DNA from: Candidatus Fermentibacterota bacterium
Lineage (GTDB): Bacteria > JAFGKV01
Direction of reading: 5' to 3'
Length of the DNA stretch: 9,614 nt
Assembly (NCBI GenBank): GCA_016928395.1
Contig: JAFGKV010000334.1
Coordinates: 1 to 9,614 of the forward strand
Shown here: piece by piece, positions 83 to 8,850 of the stretch
Numbering within the stretch: position 1 is the stretch's first letter
Layout of the letters: each line of letters opens with the position of its first letter
The notes under the pieces: model-generated
What the model was told of the DNA's origin: nothing
Database searches by the model: none
Seen by the model: the letters and a program-made list of their open reading frames with translations, nothing else
Translations under genes and position numbers: made by a program

Positions 83-718
83 ATGCAACAGCGGTTGATG
101 GAGGCAGTTCTCGGCGGCGATGAGCCCCTTACGAAAGATCTCACACAACGGCTCCTCGGGCAGGGCTTGGCTGCCCGCGTGATTCTGGACGAAGTCCTCA
201 TCCCCGCCATCCGGCACGCAGGTGAGCTGTGGGAGCAGGGAGAGTTCTTCATTCCGGAGCTCATGCAGGCGTCCAGTGCCATGAAGGGCGCCATGGGCAT
301 CATCCGTCCCCACCTTAACGCTGCGGGCGGTGCCGCCGGAGCCACGGTAGTCATCGGCACCATCGAAGGCGATATTCACGATATTGGCAAGACGCTGGTG
401 GCCGGAATGCTCGAAGCCGCCGGGCACCAGGTCATCGATCTGGGCGCCGACGTAGCGGCGACCCGTTTCGTAGACGAGGCCCGGCGCAGCGGTGCAGCGC
501 TCATCTGCATCTCCGCGCTGCTCACGACGACCATGGTGAACCAACGCAAGGTAGTGGAGGAGCGCGACCGGGCGGGACTGGCCTCGATTGCCCGGGTCAT
601 GGTGGGAGGCGCCCCGGTCACCCGGGCATGGGCCCATCGCATCGGCGCCGAAGGCTGGGCTCCCGATGCCTTTTCCGCAGTGGATGAAGCTGCCAGGCTC
701 CTGTCTCTCCCCGCATGA
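83..718 (+). CDS. Corrinoid (B12-binding) methyl carrier protein, MttC/MtbC type
   Basis: This is a methyl-carrying corrinoid protein. It would shuttle a methyl group on cobalamin between a substrate methyltransferase and an acceptor methyltransferase in the cytoplasm. The 211 residues show the usual two parts: a helical cap domain (about residues 1-80, with LWEQGEFFIPEL at 49-60) and a Rossmann-like B12 domain (about 87-211). The signature DIHDIG is at 97-102, where His99 would be the lower axial cobalt ligand. It is followed by the conserved Ser144-Ala-Leu and Gly175-Gly176 positions that surround the nucleotide tail. Length and order match the stand-alone corrinoid proteins of methylamine and glycine betaine systems. 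The stop overlaps the next start as ATGA. The partners encoded next door (Hcy methyltransferase and MttB-like) fit the role. The family is secure; the methyl source and acceptor are inferred from context. Confidence 0.93.
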   Translation: MQQRLMEAVLGGDEPLTKDLTQRLLGQGLAARVILDEVLIPAIRHAGELWEQGEFFIPELMQASSAMKGAMGIIRPHLNAAGGAAGATVVIGTIEGDIHDIGKTLVAGMLEAAGHQVIDLGADVAATRFVDEARRSGAALICISALLTTTMVNQRKVVEERDRAGLASIARVMVGGAPVTRAWAHRIGAEGWAPDAFSAVDEAARLLSLPA

Positions 719-1572
719 GCGATCTTCTCGTTCTTGATGGTGCCATGGGCACCGAACTCATCGCCCGGGGCCTTTCCCCGGGCGGCAGCCCCGACATGTG
801 GAACCTAAAGCGCCCCAAAGAGGTCAGAGACGTGCACGCGTCCTATGCTGAGGCGGGCGCCCAGGTGCTCACCACCAATTCGTTCGGCTCAAACGCGATC
901 CGCCTGAAGGCATCCGGCGCTCATGGTCTTATCGACCGGCTCAATCGCGCCGCGGCACGACTCGCCCGGGAGGCCTCGGGAGACTGCATGGTGGCGGGCG
1001 ACATCGGCCCTACCGGCGAGATACTGGCACCTTTGGGAAAGCTCTCTCTTGATGAGACCCGTGCCGCGTTCCGCGCCCAGGCCCGCGAGCTGGCCGCCGC
1101 GGGAGTTGACCTGTTCATCGTGGAGACCTTTTTCAATCTGCAGGAAGCGCGCTGCGCACTGGAGGCGGTCAGGGAGGTGTGCAGCCTCCCCGTGTGGGTC
1201 AGCCTGACCTTCCGGCGCACCGCCCGCGGCTTCTTCACCGTGTATGGTGACAGACCGCTTCCTGCTCTGACCATGCTGCTGGAGGGAGGAGCTGATAAGG
1301 CCGGCGCCAACTGCACGCTGGCATCGGCTGACATGGCCGACCTGGCGACGGAACTGGTGCCAGATTTAGGTGCCCATGCGTTCTTTCAGCCCAATGCAGG
1401 CGAACCTCAAGTCGACGGGTCCAGGCTGGTGTATCGAGAGACGCCGGCGCACTTCGCCCGGGAGATGGCCCGCATCGCGGCTTTGGAGCCTGGGGCCGTA
1501 GGGGGCTGCTGTGGCACGACACCTGATCATATCAGAGCGCTGGCAGGCGCCCTTGAGAGGAGAATGAAGTGA
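715..1572 (+). CDS. Stand-alone homocysteine S-methyltransferase domain protein
   Basis: This 285-residue protein is a single homocysteine S-methyltransferase (Hcy-binding) TIM barrel, like the first module of MetH or like BHMT and MmuM. The N-terminal LDGAMGTELIARG (7-19) and the TTNSFGSN segment (53-60) are typical of MetH-like members. The zinc ligands are all present: Cys200 in GANC and the pair Cys265-Cys266 in GGCCGT. It would activate homocysteine as zinc thiolate and accept methyl to make methionine. There is no pterin or B12 domain in the chain; the corrinoid protein is a separate gene just upstream (4-base ATGA overlap). No Shine-Dalgarno motif precedes the ATG, which points to translational coupling. 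Direct use of another methyl donor, as in BHMT or MmuM, cannot be excluded. Methyl transfer from the neighbouring corrinoid protein is an inference. Confidence 0.9.
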   Translation: MSDLLVLDGAMGTELIARGLSPGGSPDMWNLKRPKEVRDVHASYAEAGAQVLTTNSFGSNAIRLKASGAHGLIDRLNRAAARLAREASGDCMVAGDIGPTGEILAPLGKLSLDETRAAFRAQARELAAAGVDLFIVETFFNLQEARCALEAVREVCSLPVWVSLTFRRTARGFFTVYGDRPLPALTMLLEGGADKAGANCTLASADMADLATELVPDLGAHAFFQPNAGEPQVDGSRLVYRETPAHFAREMARIAALEPGAVGGCCGTTPDHIRALAGALERRMK

Positions 1573-3020
1573 CGCCTCGTCTTGAACTGATGTCTACGGA
1601 GATGGTGCGGCTCGTCGTCGAGGAAGCCATGGGAATCCTGGAGAACCACGGTATCTGGATCGAGCATGAGGAGGCGGAATCACTGCTGATGGAAGCCGGC
1701 GCCACCGCCCACGCGGGTCGTGTGCAGATCCCCCGGGCGCTGGTGCAGGGAGCTCTCCGAAGCGCGCCGTCTACCATCACGTTCTGGGATTTTGCTGCCG
1801 AAGACAGTTTCACTGTGGGCAGCGGCATATCGCACTTCGTTCCTGGATCGGCTGCTCTTCAGATCTGGGATCTGGAGACGATGAGCCCCCGCTCCCCCGT
1901 CACCTCCGACCTAGTCAACCTGGCAAGGCTTGTGGATTCGCTGGGGCATGTTTCGTTCCAGAGCACCTCCATCGTGGCATCCGATGTCCCCGAATCCCTG
2001 GCGGATCGATACCGCCTGTTGATCGCTCTTCTCTACTGCAGGAAACCGGTGATCACCGGCACCTTCGCCCAGGATGCGTTTTGCTCCATGCAGGCACTGC
2101 TGGAGGCCGTCAGGGGCGGCCCGGAGGAGCTGGCAGCCAAACCACTGGCCATGTTCGACTGCTGCCCTTCGGCACCCCTTTTGTGGAGCGCCCTCACCAC
2201 GGACGCACTCCTCCGCGCGGCCAGAGCCCGTATCCCCGCCGAGTTGGTCTCCATGCCCATGGCCGGCGCCACCGGCCCCGTGACCCTGGCCGGCTGCGTG
2301 GTGCAGCACTGCGCGGAGAACCTCTCCGGCGTCGTGATGCATCAGCTCGCCCAGCCCGGCGCGCCCATCTCCTACGGCGGCAGCCCGGGCATCATGGACA
2401 TGCGCCACGGCACGACTCCCATGGGCGCGATAGAAACTCACATGATCGATATGGCCAATGCCCAGGTTGGTCGGCACCTGGGCCTCCCCACCCATGCGTA
2501 TATGGGGCTGTCGGATTCCGCGTGGCCCGACTACCAGGCGGGGGCCGAATCGGTCTTGGGCGGTGTCCTTGCCATGCTGGCCGGCGTGAGCATCGTGTCG
2601 GGGGCTGGGATGCTCAAGTTCGAAAACCGCCAGAGCCTGGAGAAACTGGTGCTGGACAATGAGTTCATCGGCGCCATTCACCGCCTTTCCCGGGGCCTGG
2701 AGCTGAGAGAACAGCCGATGGCGGGCCACCTCATGGAGGCCCTCATCACCAAAGGCCACCTTCTTGACCATGACCATACCCGCGCCTGGCTTCGCAAAGA
2801 GCACTATTTCCCGGGGCCCTCGGTGGAACGTCGCGCCGAGCCCCCTCCCGAACGGGAGGCCGGCGGAGCCCATCGACGAGCCTTGGATGCAGTGCAGAAG
2901 ACTCTGGCGGCCCCGATTCGAGCGATACCACCCCCCGAGCTCAAGACGAGGCTCATCGCCATCATGAAGGCTGAGTTTGCCCGCTTCGGGGCATCGCTCC
3001 CCGCGCTGCCGGAGGCTTGA
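1569..3020 (+). CDS. MttB-family (trimethylamine methyltransferase-like) corrinoid methyltransferase, non-pyrrolysine
   Basis: This 483-residue protein belongs to the MttB superfamily, which moves a methyl group from a quaternary or tertiary amine to a cognate corrinoid protein. Family segments are visible throughout: SMPMAGATGPVTLAG (228-242), the GGSPGIMDMRHGT stretch (270-282), SDSAWPDYQAGAES (315-328) and the VSGAGML segment (343-349). The reading frame contains no internal UAG, so this is a pyrrolysine-free member. Characterised proteins of that kind (for example MtgB) act on glycine betaine, proline betaine, carnitine or similar compounds. The substrate here cannot be read from sequence. 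The start is a GTG that overlaps the previous stop (GTGA), with AGGAG at 1558-1562 six bases upstream. An in-frame ATG at 1590 is a less likely alternative. The neighbouring corrinoid protein is the obvious partner. No reductive activase (RamA-like) gene is present here. Confidence 0.92.
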   Translation: MTPRLELMSTEMVRLVVEEAMGILENHGIWIEHEEAESLLMEAGATAHAGRVQIPRALVQGALRSAPSTITFWDFAAEDSFTVGSGISHFVPGSAALQIWDLETMSPRSPVTSDLVNLARLVDSLGHVSFQSTSIVASDVPESLADRYRLLIALLYCRKPVITGTFAQDAFCSMQALLEAVRGGPEELAAKPLAMFDCCPSAPLLWSALTTDALLRAARARIPAELVSMPMAGATGPVTLAGCVVQHCAENLSGVVMHQLAQPGAPISYGGSPGIMDMRHGTTPMGAIETHMIDMANAQVGRHLGLPTHAYMGLSDSAWPDYQAGAESVLGGVLAMLAGVSIVSGAGMLKFENRQSLEKLVLDNEFIGAIHRLSRGLELREQPMAGHLMEALITKGHLLDHDHTRAWLRKEHYFPGPSVERRAEPPPEREAGGAHRRALDAVQKTLAAPIRAIPPPELKTRLIAIMKAEFARFGASLPALPEA

Positions 3021-3808
3021 TGCACGCCATCGCACTCCAATGGTCCATCCGGCGAATGGACCCCGAGGCCAATATGGGCATGGCGGCCGACCTACTGCGC
3101 GCTTCCTCACCGCAGCCTGGTGACCTGATCGTATTGCCCGAACTCTGGCCGACGGGGTACTCAAGCGGCGACAGACTCGCGGGTGCCGCCACAGAGCATG
3201 GAGGTCGGTGGTCTTCATTCTGCGCAGATCTTGCCTCGTCCCACGGCGTGATCATTGCCGGAACGGTCCCCGCACGAACGGACAATGCACTGACCAACCG
3301 ACTCCTGGTATCGGGCCCGGAGGGAACGCTGGGATATTATGACAAGATCCATCTCTTCCCTCCTATGCGAGAGCAGCAACTGTTCGTACCCGGAACCAGG
3401 GCCGACCCCATCCCTTTGCCGGGCGGCCCCGTGATGGGGCCCGTCATCTGCTATGACGTGCGCTTCCCTGAGCTGTTCCGCCTGCTGGCCCTGCGCGGCG
3501 CCACGGTTTTTGTGATGCCCTCCCAGTTTCCAGACCCCAAGGAGGATCTCTGGCACATCTTCCTGGCCTCCCGCGCCGCCGAGAACCAGGCGTACCTGGT
3601 AGCCTGCAATCGCACGGGCGAATCGGGCTCGTTCACGTTCTTTGGTTCCAGTGCAGTCTATGATCCGCTCGGGCGGTGCCTGGGTCGATTGGGCCGCGAG
3701 GAAGGCTATCTCAAGGTGACGATAGACCCGGCAGTAGTGGTCGAGACCCGTGACGCGCTGCCGGTGCTACCCCACGCGCGGCTCTCCCTCGAGGTAAAGA
3801 CACCATGA
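3020..3808 (+). CDS. Carbon-nitrogen hydrolase (nitrilase superfamily), omega-amidase-like
   Basis: This is a 262-residue cytoplasmic amidase of the nitrilase superfamily. The catalytic triad is complete: Glu41 in LPELWPTGY, Lys109 in YYDKIHLF and Cys144 in ICYDVRFPE. Glu118 may be the supporting second glutamate. The CYDVRFPELFR pattern and the RAAENQAYLVACNRTG segment (185-200) resemble omega-amidase / Nit2 / MtnU-type enzymes, which hydrolyse alpha-ketoglutaramate and related omega-amides. Some of these work in methionine salvage alongside glutamine transaminases. I chose the ATG at 3020, which overlaps the preceding stop by one base (TGATG) and has GGAGG at 3011-3015. A TTG one codon earlier is possible but unnecessary. 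Its place in a methionine-related operon makes an omega-amidase plausible, but other small amides, including products of betaine-type compounds, remain possible. Confidence 0.88.
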   Translation: MHAIALQWSIRRMDPEANMGMAADLLRASSPQPGDLIVLPELWPTGYSSGDRLAGAATEHGGRWSSFCADLASSHGVIIAGTVPARTDNALTNRLLVSGPEGTLGYYDKIHLFPPMREQQLFVPGTRADPIPLPGGPVMGPVICYDVRFPELFRLLALRGATVFVMPSQFPDPKEDLWHIFLASRAAENQAYLVACNRTGESGSFTFFGSSAVYDPLGRCLGRLGREEGYLKVTIDPAVVVETRDALPVLPHARLSLEVKTP

Positions 3809-4068
3809 CCGCGCGTCGCACCCGTACCGCGCTGCCCAAGAGACATCGTCTGAAGGTCAAGCGAAACCGACCGCCCAAGAAGCGGCTATGGCTCAGGAGC
3901 CGGGACTATTGGGTCGGCTGGGGATGCGCGGCCGCGGCCGTGGTCTGCGTGATTCTCGGGCTCTCTCGTCACCTGTTCCTGATTCCCGGAGGCCTGTTCT
4001 TCGTGGCAGCGGTGTTGTCCCATCGCCGCCACGCAAAGAAGTACCGCGCCGGCCTGGGATTGTGGTAA
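3805..4068 (+). CDS. Small basic protein with two predicted membrane segments
   Basis: This 87-residue protein is not one I recognise. The first 33 residues are very rich in Arg, Lys and His (for example RHRLKVKRNRPPKKR at 13-27). They are followed by a likely membrane helix (about 36-53, WVGWGCAAAAVVCVILGL), a short turn with Pro61, a second hydrophobic helix (about 56-72) and a basic tail (HRRHAKKYR). By the positive-inside rule both ends would sit in the cytoplasm, as a hairpin. The start overlaps the amidase stop as ATGA, with GAGGT at 3791-3795, so the gene is probably co-translated with the methyl-transfer cassette as its last member. It may simply be carried at the operon end. A role as a membrane anchor or small transport accessory is speculation. 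Confidence 0.7.
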   Translation: MTARRTRTALPKRHRLKVKRNRPPKKRLWLRSRDYWVGWGCAAAAVVCVILGLSRHLFLIPGGLFFVAAVLSHRRHAKKYRAGLGLW

Positions 4069-4085
4069 GCTGAGCGACGCTCGGC
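4069..4085 (+). terminator. Weak hairpin directly after the first operon
   Basis: GCTGAG at 4069-4074 pairs with CTCGGC at 4080-4085 (one G-T wobble) around the five-base loop CGACG, starting one base after the stop codon of the small membrane protein gene. There is no T-tract, so it does not meet the classic intrinsic terminator pattern. It may be a partial terminator or an mRNA 3' end structure. The remaining bases up to 4265 show no promoter I can support. Confidence 0.25.
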
Positions 4086-4278
4086 ACCTGCCCGGCTATT
4101 CGCCGATTCCCGACTTCCTCCCGCTCTTCATCTTTGGCGCGGGACAGACGCCTTGCGATAGGACGACGTCTGGACGATCTTGATTCATGGAATGCGTTTC
4201 GTGTGCTGAGCCCTCACGGAGTCGAGACCAGCCATTCCTCCCGCGAGGTGCTCGGTCATTACCACGGAAGGACTCATC

Positions 4279-6324
4279 ATGCGCATAGCCCCCTGGATCT
4301 CGCTTATGTTGGCTGTCGCCCTTACTCAGGCGGCAGAGACCGATTCCCCTGAGGCCATCATCGCCGCACTGCAGGCACAGGGCCGCGCCGAGGGTTGGAC
4401 CTTTTCCGTGGGTGAGAATGGTGCTACCGACCGTACCATCCAGGAACTGTGTGGCCTGGTCGAACCACCGGGCTGGCGGAGCAGCGCGCAGTTCGATCCG
4501 TGCGTGGTGACCAGGGACCTCCCTGCCAGCTTTGACTGGCGGGAGTACGATGGATGCACGCCGGTGAGGAACCAGGGATCCTGCGGGAGTTGCTGGGCAT
4601 TCGGCACTGCCGGCGCCCTCGAGTGCAACATCAAAATACGAGACGGCGTCACCAGGGATCTTTCCGAGCAGTGGCTTGTCTCCTGCAATACCGATGGGTA
4701 CGGCTGCGGCGGCGGCTGGTTTGTCCACGACTATCACATCTGGAAGAAGGATCCCTGCAATGGCACCGGGTATGTCTTGGAGGCAGACTTCCCCTACGCC
4801 GCCCAGGATCTTCCCTGCGCCTGCCCCTACGCTCATCAGACCCCTGCCGACGGCTGGGCATACATCGGTAGCGGCTCCGGTACCCCAGCAGTCAACTCAA
4901 TCAAGCAGGCCATCCTTGACTATGGTCCCGTGTCGGTGGCGGTGTACGTAAACACTGCATTCCACGATTACACCGGCGGGATCTTCAACTCCAACTCGCC
5001 CGGCAGCGTCAACCACGCCGTCGTGTTAGTGGGGTGGGACGACACCCAGGGTGCCGGCGGCGTCTGGTTTCTGCGTAACTCGTGGGGCGCAGGGTGGGGC
5101 GAGGACGGCTACATGAGGATCCAGTATGGCTGCAACAGCGTCGGCTATGCTGCCTGCTACGTCAATTACCCCGGATTGCGGGTTGGGTTCGAGTATCCCG
5201 AAGGACGTCCCGACATGCTGACGCCCGGGCAGGCAACAACGTTCCCCGTCATCGTCTCGCCGTCCACGGGCGTGCCCGTGCCAGGCACCGGCCAGATGCA
5301 CTACAGCGTCAATGGCGGCCCCTTCACCACTGTTTCCATGACTCAGACGCGGGACGACACCTATCAGGCGACCATTCCCGCAGCGGGTTCCCTAGACCGG
5401 GTGCAGTGGTTCGTGAGCGCGCACGAACAGATCGCCGGAGCCGTCACCGACCCGCAGTTTGCGCCTGCTCAAACCTATCCATCCATAGTGGCAACCTCAA
5501 CAGTGCCCCTGTATGCCGATGACTTCGAATCAAACACAGGATGGACAGTGTCGGCCGGTGCAACCACTGGCAATTGGGAGCGGGCCGATCCCCAGCAAGT
5601 CTACTACTCGGGCACCGACGAGATCACCCAACCGGAAGACGATCACACTCCAGGCAGTGCCCTCTGTTATGTCACCGGCGCCCAGGCCGGCTCCAGCGCC
5701 GGCAGCTACGACGTAGACGGCGGGCCCACCCGCCTGACCTCGCCGGTCTTGAACCTCACAGCCGCAGTGCATCCGGTGGTGAGCTACTGGCGTTGGTACC
5801 ACATCTGTACCCAGTGGGATGATCCGCTGACGGTGGAAGTATCCAATGACAACGGCACGACCTGGGTGGTGGCGGAGCAGATCCACACCCGGCAGACATG
5901 GACCGAGGCGCGGTGGTTTGTCGAAGACTTTGTCGCACCCTCCGCGCAGGTGAGGATTCGCTTCACCGCGTGGGATACCGATCCAGGCTCCCTGATCGAG
6001 GCCTTGGTGGATGACCTCCTGGTAGTCGGATACGGGTGTGAAGGAGGCCTGGCGCCGCCAGACGTGACCATCGCCCAAGACGGGTTATGGGTCTCACTCA
6101 CCTGGGACCCCGTGCCTGATGCGACGACGTATCAGGTCTACTCTTCGGCGGATGCATGGAGCGGGTTTGTCGCCGATCTTACCGGCACGCTCAGCGGCAC
6201 AACCTGGCAGGCTCCGATGGTCGGCGAACGCCGGTACTACCGCGTGACCGCATCATCGGCTGATGCGGAGTCCGTCCCAGGCAACGTCGTGGGCTTCGAC
6301 CAGTTCGTCACGGATATCCCGTAA
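4279..6324 (+). CDS. Secreted C1A papain-family cysteine protease with C-terminal beta-rich and Fn3-like domains
   Basis: This 681-residue protein has a signal peptide (about 1-19, MRIAPWISLMLAVALTQAA). A short pro-region (about 20-80) precedes a complete papain domain (about 82-298). The active site is intact: Gln99 of the oxyanion hole, Cys105 in CGSCWAF, His246 in NHAVVLVGW and Asn267 in RNSWG. Cys102 and Cys143 (GCGGG) match a conserved papain disulfide, and Cys136 with Cys180 or Cys182 probably makes a second. The C-terminal half has a domain of about 300-405, a jelly-roll/MAM-like domain (about 410-585; DDFES at 414-418, then VSNDNGTTW at 521-529) and a fibronectin-III-like domain (about 592-672). 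There is no evident T9SS-type sorting tail, unlike the next gene. GGAAGGA at 4266-4272 supports the ATG. A secreted endopeptidase acting on outside proteins or peptides is likely; the substrate is unknown. Confidence 0.93.
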   Translation: MRIAPWISLMLAVALTQAAETDSPEAIIAALQAQGRAEGWTFSVGENGATDRTIQELCGLVEPPGWRSSAQFDPCVVTRDLPASFDWREYDGCTPVRNQGSCGSCWAFGTAGALECNIKIRDGVTRDLSEQWLVSCNTDGYGCGGGWFVHDYHIWKKDPCNGTGYVLEADFPYAAQDLPCACPYAHQTPADGWAYIGSGSGTPAVNSIKQAILDYGPVSVAVYVNTAFHDYTGGIFNSNSPGSVNHAVVLVGWDDTQGAGGVWFLRNSWGAGWGEDGYMRIQYGCNSVGYAACYVNYPGLRVGFEYPEGRPDMLTPGQATTFPVIVSPSTGVPVPGTGQMHYSVNGGPFTTVSMTQTRDDTYQATIPAAGSLDRVQWFVSAHEQIAGAVTDPQFAPAQTYPSIVATSTVPLYADDFESNTGWTVSAGATTGNWERADPQQVYYSGTDEITQPEDDHTPGSALCYVTGAQAGSSAGSYDVDGGPTRLTSPVLNLTAAVHPVVSYWRWYHICTQWDDPLTVEVSNDNGTTWVVAEQIHTRQTWTEARWFVEDFVAPSAQVRIRFTAWDTDPGSLIEALVDDLLVVGYGCEGGLAPPDVTIAQDGLWVSLTWDPVPDATTYQVYSSADAWSGFVADLTGTLSGTTWQAPMVGERRYYRVTASSADAESVPGNVVGFDQFVTDIP

Positions 6325-6417: not shown

Positions 6418-8850
6418 ATGAAGGCCGATTCCGGAAGAACCCTCGCGTTCTCCTCTCTGAACGTTGCCTTGGCCATCCTGTGTGCCGGGTCGCCGGCCTA
6501 CACCCAGACCGTGGCCGAATGGCAGACAACCATGGGCATGTTTCGGTGCGAACTGCGGGAGGATCTTGTACCGATCACCGCCGGCAACTTCATCGACCTG
6601 ACGAACGCAGGCTTCTATGACGGCTGCATTTTCCACCGGGTGATCGATGATTTCGTGATCCAAGACGGGGATCCCACGGGAACCGGCGAGGGGGGCCCAG
6701 GCTACACGATTCCAGACGAGTTCCACCCAGATCTGAACCACAATGCGCCTGGCATACTCTCCATGGCCAATGCCGGCCCCAATACGGGCGGTTCCCAGTA
6801 CTTCATCACGCTGACACCCCAGCCTCATCTCAACAATCAACATGCGGTGTTCGGGCGCGTAGTGATGGGCCTGGATGTGGTGCAGGCTATCGGCGATGTG
6901 CCTACGGACAACAATGACAGGCCGATCGTCCCGGTGGTCATCGACACGCTGCGAATCCTGGGCATCATCTACCCTCATCTGGATCTGGAGGAACTGACGG
7001 TAGCCGAGGATCCGGCGGATTCCGATGGCGATGGCGTGATCAATCCCACCGAGTCCGGCATCCTTACCCTACGGATCACCAACTGGGCCGGATGGCAGGA
7101 TGCCGACTCCATCATCGGCACGCTGACCTGCGTCGATAGCCGAGTGCAGATCACCGAGGGGGCCATCGATTTCGGGTTCCTGCCCAATGGCGCCTCCACT
7201 GACAATCTATCGTGGCCGTTCCGGTTCACTATCACTTCCAACGAGGTATTCTCCACGACCCTCCGGCTGGAGATCGTCGCCAACCCGGGGTCCGATCACC
7301 CCTATTCACAGGTCGTGGACATTCCTCTTCCCGTCACGCTCAATCAGGCCGGGTGGCCCCAGTCATTCACCTCCTCGTCATCGCCACTCATCATTGATCT
7401 GGATCGTGACGGCGCCAACGAAGTCGTGCTGGCCGACCAGCAGGGATTCGTGCATGCCTTCCGTGCGGACGCATCGTCTGAGCTGCCGGGGTTCCCGGTC
7501 GCGCTGGGGGGCACCGTCAGGACGGCGGTGGCGGCAGGGAATCTCGATGACGATGAAGCGCTGGAACTTGTGGTCACCAAGAGAACCCCGAATGCCATCG
7601 CGGCCATCGACCATACGGGAGCCGTGCTCTTCACTCACCAGACAGATGAGTTCCTCATGGCCAATCCTATCATCGCCGACGTAGACGATGACGGGACCGC
7701 GGAAATCGTCGCGGTGACGATGAGCACCGGTTCTGTCCTGATCCTACGACCCGATGGCGAAGCCTTTCCCGGGTTTCCCGCGTCCCTGGGCGCCACTGTC
7801 CGCGCATCCGGGGCGGTGGCCGATCTGAACAACGACGGCTATCTGGACGTGGTTGTCGTGTCCAATGCGTCCGGAGGATCACTGCATGCCATCTCCACGG
7901 CCGACGGGGCAGAATTGCCGGGCTGGCCGTGTCTGATCGGTGCCGAATCGGCCAATGGCCCGACGGTGACGGATCTGGACGGCGGCGGTCCGCCTGAGGC
8001 GCTGGTGGCCACCGACGGAGGGGTGATCTACTGCGTCAATCATGACGGAAGCGTCCGCTTCTCCAAGACCGTGAGCGCCCCGGTCAAGACCTCCATCGTC
8101 GTTGCCGACTTGGACGGCGATGACCGTGTCGATGTGGTCTTCGTGAGCAATGACGGGGCGGTGCATGCCATTGACCGACAGGGAGGAGACCTTCCCGGGT
8201 TCCCCATAAGCATCGTCGCACCATGCCAGTCCACGCCTGTGCTGGCCGACATGAACGGTAACGGCTCCATCGACATCGTGTTCGGCGACGGGGCCGGGTA
8301 TCTTCACGCCATCGACATCACAGGTGATGCGCTACCGCCGTTCCCCATGGCCTTGGGCCCCGGTGTGCTGGAGGGGATCTCCATGGGTCTTCTCGATGAT
8401 GATGCCGACGTCGAGCTCGCCGTGGTGGCGGGCACGCGGTGCTACGTAATTGACACCAAGCGCCAGGCCCAGGTCATCTGGCCATGTTTCAAGGGAAATC
8501 CTCGACGAACCGGCAATACTGCGGACATCTCCACCTCGTCTCCTGACTGGCCTCCTCTCCCGGCGGCGGCATTGCGGCTGGATCCGGTGTTCCCGAATCC
8601 TTTCGTGGGTAGCGTTTCTCTTCGGTTCTCCACGACTGTCCCCGGGTTAACGTCGCTACGGGTGTATGACCTGAGTGGCCGGATGGTAGCCTCGCTGTTC
8701 GACGGCATGCTGCCGGCCGGTGACCATGCCGTCCGTTGGAATGGTAGGGATTCTCTGGGCCGCCCCAGCGCCAGCGGCACCTATTTGTGCACCCTGACTT
8801 CCCACGGTCGCGACATGGTGCGACGAATTGTGCATGTGAGCGTGGACTAA
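6418..8850 (+). CDS. Secreted cyclophilin PPIase fused to Ig-like domain, eight-unit beta-propeller and T9SS-type sorting tail
   Basis: This 810-residue protein has a signal peptide (about 1-29) and then a cyclophilin domain (about 36-183). Arg74, Phe79 and Gln82 in FHRVIDDFVIQDGDP match the human CypA Arg55/Phe60/Gln63 site. GSQYFIT (125-131) and His142 fit as well, and His137 replaces CypA Trp121, as in many bacterial forms. An Asp-rich loop (DSDGDGVINPTES, 201-213) opens an Ig-like/CARDB-like domain (about 186-306). Eight repeats of 45-50 residues follow (about 310-700). Each holds an Asp-rich FG-GAP-like loop (e.g. DLDRDG, DVDDDG, DLNNDG) and an HAID..G-like strand, often ending in PGFP. 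The series closes with a WPCFKGNPRRTGN motif (688-700). Residues 719-810 are a FlgD-like sorting tail with PNPF (726-729). AAGGAG at 6405-6410 sets the start. It is probably exported and displayed on or released from the cell surface. Isomerase activity is likely but not proven. Confidence 0.9.
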   Translation: MKADSGRTLAFSSLNVALAILCAGSPAYTQTVAEWQTTMGMFRCELREDLVPITAGNFIDLTNAGFYDGCIFHRVIDDFVIQDGDPTGTGEGGPGYTIPDEFHPDLNHNAPGILSMANAGPNTGGSQYFITLTPQPHLNNQHAVFGRVVMGLDVVQAIGDVPTDNNDRPIVPVVIDTLRILGIIYPHLDLEELTVAEDPADSDGDGVINPTESGILTLRITNWAGWQDADSIIGTLTCVDSRVQITEGAIDFGFLPNGASTDNLSWPFRFTITSNEVFSTTLRLEIVANPGSDHPYSQVVDIPLPVTLNQAGWPQSFTSSSSPLIIDLDRDGANEVVLADQQGFVHAFRADASSELPGFPVALGGTVRTAVAAGNLDDDEALELVVTKRTPNAIAAIDHTGAVLFTHQTDEFLMANPIIADVDDDGTAEIVAVTMSTGSVLILRPDGEAFPGFPASLGATVRASGAVADLNNDGYLDVVVVSNASGGSLHAISTADGAELPGWPCLIGAESANGPTVTDLDGGGPPEALVATDGGVIYCVNHDGSVRFSKTVSAPVKTSIVVADLDGDDRVDVVFVSNDGAVHAIDRQGGDLPGFPISIVAPCQSTPVLADMNGNGSIDIVFGDGAGYLHAIDITGDALPPFPMALGPGVLEGISMGLLDDDADVELAVVAGTRCYVIDTKRQAQVIWPCFKGNPRRTGNTADISTSSPDWPPLPAAALRLDPVFPNPFVGSVSLRFSTTVPGLTSLRVYDLSGRMVASLFDGMLPAGDHAVRWNGRDSLGRPSASGTYLCTLTSHGRDMVRRIVHVSVD
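7390..8517 (+). repeat. Eight tandem protein-level repeats (FG-GAP/PQQ-like propeller blades)
   Basis: Within the cyclophilin fusion, acidic calcium-loop motifs begin near residues 325, 372, 418, 466, 516, 561, 608 and 655, a period of 45-50 residues (about 140 bases). Between them run strands such as VHAFRADASSELPGFP and LHAIDITGDALPPFP. The DNA copies are diverged, so these are old protein repeats and not recent duplications. Eight units suggest an eight-bladed propeller; seven blades plus an overlapping half-unit is possible. Confidence 0.75.

Follow-up and report, generated by a model that had tools for sequence, protein, structure and literature searches.

An Overlapping Corrinoid, Homocysteine Methyltransferase and MttB Gene Cluster from Candidatus Fermentibacterota as a Putative Split Cobalamin-Dependent Methionine Synthase

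Organization of the Gene Cluster

The window, which is the whole 9,614-nucleotide stretch of Candidatus Fermentibacterota DNA that was analysed (GCA_016928395.1, contig JAFGKV010000334.1), contains a set of overlapping genes for a corrinoid protein, a zinc homocysteine (Hcy) methyltransferase and an MttB-family methyltransferase. The gene set is real and conserved, and its sequences suggest that it probably represents a split methionine synthase that depends on cobalamin and has the MttB-family protein in place of the folate (pterin) module.

The first gene (83-718, + strand) encodes a stand-alone corrinoid (B12) protein of 211 amino acids, MtgC/MtbC-like, with the domains PF02310 (E 2e-25) and PF02607 (E 7e-20) in the Pfam profile search; its top NCBIfam model was MtgC (178 bits, below the cut-off of 310), its PDB match was 1y80, and its translation carries the DxHxxG motif of the MetH corrinoid module as DIHDIG with His99. 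The second gene (715-1572, +) encodes a stand-alone homocysteine S-methyltransferase of the MetH/Bmt type (285 amino acids; PF02574, E 6e-67), whose Cys200, Cys265 and Cys266 align with the three zinc cysteines of Thermotoga MetH. The third gene (1569-3020, +, GTG start) encodes an MttB-family protein of 483 amino acids with a full-length MttB superfamily domain (COG5598/PF06253; E 2.4e-71, profile positions 29-478 of 500) and 316 bits against TIGR02369, whose cut-off is 525. Leu314 of this protein aligns with the pyrrolysine of methanogen MttB (X in 7xcl; 9yce and 2qne were also aligned), and the frame has no in-frame TAG, which sets it apart from the pyrrolysine-containing trimethylamine methyltransferase MttB. 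The fourth gene (3020-3808, +, with a TTG start at 3017 also possible) encodes an omega-amidase/YafV-like carbon-nitrogen hydrolase (CN_hydrolase; PF00795, E 4e-45), for which the nearest YafV/omega-amidase models scored far below their cut-offs (PRK10438, 104 bits against 249). The corrinoid, Hcy and MttB genes are joined by 4-bp overlaps, ATGA (715-718) and GTGA (1569-1572), and TTGATG stands at 3017, giving a single tightly overlapping unit of four genes (83-718, 715-1572, 1569-3020 and 3017/3020-3808). Neither the pterin (methyl-folate) module nor the activation module (PF02965) of MetH was found in the window operon. The first-pass annotation, which had described a stand-alone corrinoid protein, a stand-alone zinc Hcy protein and a pyrrolysine-free MttB-family protein in overlapping genes, was borne out by the translations, the Pfam matches and the alignments, and had missed the fourth gene as well as the MetH-activation-like gene seen in the clusters of relatives.

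No SAM or cobalamin riboswitch was found by the clusters in 24 sources (the window, where only 82 bp lie upstream, and 23 cluster loci); four PYLIS_3 matches from the same search fall within the mttB coding sequence and were read as coding similarity. Elsewhere in the window, 4279-6324 encodes a papain-family (C1) protease whose C-terminal extension is long, and in the protein encoded at 6418-8850 a prolyl isomerase of the cyclophilin type is fused to FG-GAP propeller repeats and carries a T9SS-type sorting tail.

Conservation and Common Ancestry of the Cluster

The window genome (G000; 4.79 Mb, 94% complete) was compared with a genome of the same genus (G001, 82% complete) and one of the same family (G002, 98% complete), which are Eisenbacteria and Fermentibacteria MAGs in public records. 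A single MttB gene was detected in G000 with the window MttB as query. The four-gene order including the CN_hydrolase is kept in G002, with 63% MttB identity, and also in G001, where it is broken over two contigs. Of the MttB loci detected across 84,980 species genomes, the best 80 of a larger number were used (45-78% identity), and an Hcy gene of the window type was observed near MttB at 38 of these best 80 loci, mostly in the order corrinoid, Hcy, an additional protein and MttB, a frequency that excludes chance co-location. The conservation of gene order that the first-pass annotation had looked to is present both in close relatives and across phyla, such as Krumholzibacteriota, Eisenbacteria, Zixibacteria, Latescibacteria, LCP-89, Acidobacteria, Myxococcota, WOR-3 and others, about ten little-studied and mostly uncultured phyla altogether.

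In the tree of 51 Hcy domains, 40/40 of the MttB-linked sequences fell in one clade (support 100/96), separate from MetH, from the Hcy-MTHFR fusions and from alphaproteobacterial Bmt/MtgE; since the MttB-linked rows had been selected for that linkage and few outgroup sequences were included, this tree demonstrates the common ancestry of the sample and not its exclusivity. The distance matrices of the three protein families (MttB, Hcy and corrinoid) are correlated, with r 0.79-0.81, and 0/2000 permutations reached as high a value. Deep order in an MttB tree with alphaproteobacterial outgroups was unreliable owing to long branches, including that of L138 (probably a mis-trimmed row), and the analysis drew from this tree no more than the numbers of loci that have or lack Hcy. 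These observations bear on the possibility that the operon is an accident, with MttB and the corrinoid protein demethylating an amine and the Hcy protein working on its own as a homocysteine methyltransferase that uses S-methylmethionine or betaine. Such an accident would agree with the 23 related MttB loci that have no adjoining Hcy gene although their flanks are adequate, but the recurrence of Hcy beside MttB over many phyla, the single Hcy clade and the co-varying distances make it very improbable, as does the overall match of the window Hcy protein, which is far weaker to human BHMT (56 bits) than to T. maritima MetH (155 bits).

An apparent corrinoid-Hcy fusion at L104:3888-5297 is missing about 46 residues from the beginning of the Hcy barrel; this truncated join, which is probably a deletion or an assembly error, was not taken as evidence of fusion. 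In Krumholzibacteriota, the cluster is followed by genes for an isochorismatase-family hydrolase, an FAD/NAD oxidoreductase and a radical SAM protein (L118:5202-7682 and equivalents in L076, L082 and L094), and the same place in the window lineage is occupied by the unrelated amidase (CN_hydrolase), a possible hint of an amide step. The Aminicenantes cluster (L114:72-10141) combines its Hcy, corrinoid and MttB genes with those for CdhD-like and AcsV/RACo-like proteins, and also encodes an aminotransferase and an amino-acid permease.

Other Methionine Routes and Folate Enzymes

The window genome encodes a complete MetH, split over two contigs: its frame continues past the end of contig C74, and the activation domain begins at the end of contig C326. 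The MetH of G001 is a single continuous frame. G000 also has MTHFR as an Hcy-MTHFR fusion. With MetH and MTHFR at hand, the relay would be an extra route in the window organism and not its sole methionine route, and its methionine need not come from the relay. MetE is absent from G000, G001 and G002. The first-pass annotation had held that a complete MetH together with an MtgA-like folate methyltransferase elsewhere, paired with this corrinoid protein, would refute the relay; the former exists, split over the two contig ends, and the latter was not found in G000.

The question of whether methyl groups also pass through folate turns on stand-alone pterin (methyl-folate:corrinoid) methyltransferases. 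In Ruegeria pomeroyi, glycine betaine demethylation (with MtgB) and methionine synthesis (with MtgE) rely on a single corrinoid protein, MtgC, and the pterin protein MtgD is needed for both (PNAS 2025, PMC12478193). By this precedent, the operon could be the demethylation and split-MetH part of a shared-corrinoid network, in which methyl also flows through tetrahydrofolate via a pterin methyltransferase encoded elsewhere, and no dedicated relay. However, no stand-alone pterin methyltransferase, and hence no MtgD of the Ruegeria type, was found in G000, G001 or G002, where the PF00809 matches consist only of DHPS and MetH, which favours a direct relay in the window genome. Among 28 other genomes that carry the module, all of them draft MAGs, full-length MetH above the cut-off was detected in 5, a MetH core or two-piece MetH in 7, MetE-family proteins in 3 and a stand-alone pterin methyltransferase in 7, in one of which (L088) it lies inside the cluster between MttB and Hcy. 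In these 7 genomes the corrinoid protein could also serve folate, as a shared network would have it, whereas four module genomes are without both a pterin methyltransferase and MTHFR. Taken with the window genome and its two relatives, a shared network is an unlikely account of the cluster.

Six of the 28 module genomes have no MetH, MetE or stand-alone pterin methyltransferase, and DHPS was found in 6/6 of them; MTHFR is absent from 4/6 and still present in 2/6. MTHFR occurs in 15/15 of the compared module genomes with a folate-type synthase, as against its absence from 4/6 of those without one (Fisher p 0.0025, n=21), although absences in draft MAGs may be gaps, and incompleteness could give the same pattern. 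The first-pass annotation had proposed looking for genomes that have the cluster but no MetH pterin domain or MetE; six module genomes are without both, four of them without MTHFR as well, and in the window genome MetE is absent but MetH is not. In some relatives the relay may be the only methionine route. In three module-bearing genomes (G060:C131, G061:C4 and G078:C16), two MetE-family (PF01717) proteins are encoded beside an Hcy-MTHFR fusion gene.

Corrinoid Reactivation and Proposed Mechanism

A stand-alone protein of about 215 residues resembling the MetH activation domain (PF02965) is encoded between Hcy and MttB in at least 22 loci. Its matches to PF02965 range from weak to clear (E 1e-4 to 6e-10; 4/6 above the cut-off), and the proteins have an invariant SPGYG motif and a cysteine cluster at the C-terminus. 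Peptoclostridium has, between metF and the MetH core, a separate gene whose annotation is MetH activation-domain protein, indicating that separate activation proteins are normal, and the position of the corresponding gene between Hcy and MttB makes the cluster resemble a MetH whose pterin module has been exchanged for an MttB module. No stand-alone activation-like (PF02965) gene was found in G000-G002, in a search that had no positive control. A RACo-type corrinoid reactivator is encoded elsewhere in G000, and its gene context is the same in G000 and G002.

In the proposed scheme, MttB would take a methyl group from a small molecule, in all probability a quaternary or tertiary amine, and transfer it to cob(I)alamin on a partnering corrinoid protein; the zinc Hcy protein would then pass the methyl group of methylcobalamin to homocysteine, yielding methionine and restoring Co(I). 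Occasional Co(II) might be re-reduced by the MetH-activation-like protein in many relatives and, in the window lineage, which is without that gene, by the RACo-type protein or by the activation domain of MetH. The direct amine-to-homocysteine relay put forward in the first-pass annotation is partly supported. A direct transfer to homocysteine is the reading that fits best, and it gains from the recurrence of the cluster, the single Hcy clade, the activation protein of relatives and the lack of any stand-alone pterin methyltransferase among the proteins found in G000-G002, and loses from the complete MetH of the window genome. Extended further, the cluster might constitute a dedicated folate-independent methionine synthase, a MetH in which an MttB donor module stands in for the pterin module, over the roughly ten phyla, and the sole methionine synthase of some lineages, whose methionine would thus need an external methylated compound and not methyl-folate; this wider proposal is tentative and somewhat doubtful.

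Methyl Donor

The donor is probably a methylated small molecule, the amine class following from membership of the MttB family alone. For MtgB, docking alone has led to the proposal of Y94, N199, R309 and H345 as putative glycine betaine residues (PMC6855144); the window MttB has Ser94, Cys199, His309 and Ser or a gap at these places. The MttB clade shares uniform pocket motifs of its own (FxPGS, FD(C/A/V)CPSxPL and PTHAYMGLSD), and among the neighbouring genes inspected no donor-naming gene family recurs near the clusters. The methylated amine named in the first-pass annotation is thus a weaker part of its reading than the relay to homocysteine.

These pocket residues, unlike those of the glycine betaine enzyme and uniform within the clade, would also suit a salvage or detoxification relay that is no methionine synthase, in which the MttB-like protein uses a non-amine donor or a different thiol or selenol accepts the methyl group from the Hcy-like protein. 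PF02574 also includes other thiol and selenol methyltransferases, and the window genome already possesses MetH. This explanation is nevertheless quite improbable, since the nearest solved relatives of the window Hcy protein are MetH Hcy domains, a MetH-type activation protein is added in relatives, and several module genomes are without MetH or MetE.

A further methylamine locus was observed on contig C50 of G000 (L057), where an MtbB dimethylamine methyltransferase gene (2775-4199) precedes a gene for a corrinoid protein and contains an in-frame TAG (3843-3845) with the surroundings usual for pyrrolysine, DGL-TAG-LGVGDAFGMPLAH. As G000 yielded no PylS above the cut-off, this contig may represent contamination, or the assembly may lack the pyl genes.

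Significance and Comparison with Known Systems

Should the cluster act as a split methionine synthase, the supply of methionine and SAM would be tied to methylated osmolytes or similar compounds and not to the folate one-carbon pool; methionine gaps and B12 dependence would be scored differently in genomes of Krumholzibacteriota, Eisenbacteria, Acidobacteria and others; homocysteine would become the acceptor for a large set of uncharacterised MttB-family proteins; and the modules of MetH would be exchangeable as separate genes, changing the methyl donor.

No published description of the corrinoid-Hcy-MttB gene set was found in a literature search that had most subscription journals outside it. 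The first-pass annotation knew of no characterised pathway with exactly this set, which needs tempering, as the closest known system, MtgBCDE of Ruegeria (PMC12478193), already links MttB-family, stand-alone corrinoid and stand-alone Hcy proteins in one methyl network and so has three of its four parts in common with the window. It differs in that Ruegeria needs the pterin protein MtgD and usually has mtgE apart, without a dedicated operon, whereas here no MtgD was found and Hcy adjoins MttB; in addition, the window-type Hcy clade is separate from alphaproteobacterial Bmt/MtgE, and many relatives have a MetH-type activation protein. MetH, including the Peptoclostridium form with its separate activation protein, shares the Hcy and corrinoid modules with their zinc and DxHxxG motifs and, in relatives, the activation module, but the window cluster has an MttB-family protein in place of the pterin module, and its proteins are separate. 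The MtgB-MtgC-MtgA system of Desulfitobacterium and MtpB, MtcB and MtyB of Eubacterium limosum have in common with the window a non-pyrrolysine MttB protein and a cognate corrinoid protein; their known acceptor is tetrahydrofolate, whereas the window operon includes an Hcy protein and does not keep the proposed glycine betaine residues. The 'Four families of folate-independent methionine synthases' concern MetE-like proteins (PMC7857596). BHMT and the core methionine synthases MesA-MesD also convert homocysteine to methionine without methyl-folate, with BHMT being corrinoid-independent and the Mes proteins MetE-like, whereas the window cluster combines a MetH-type Hcy fold with a corrinoid protein and a putative MttB donor module.
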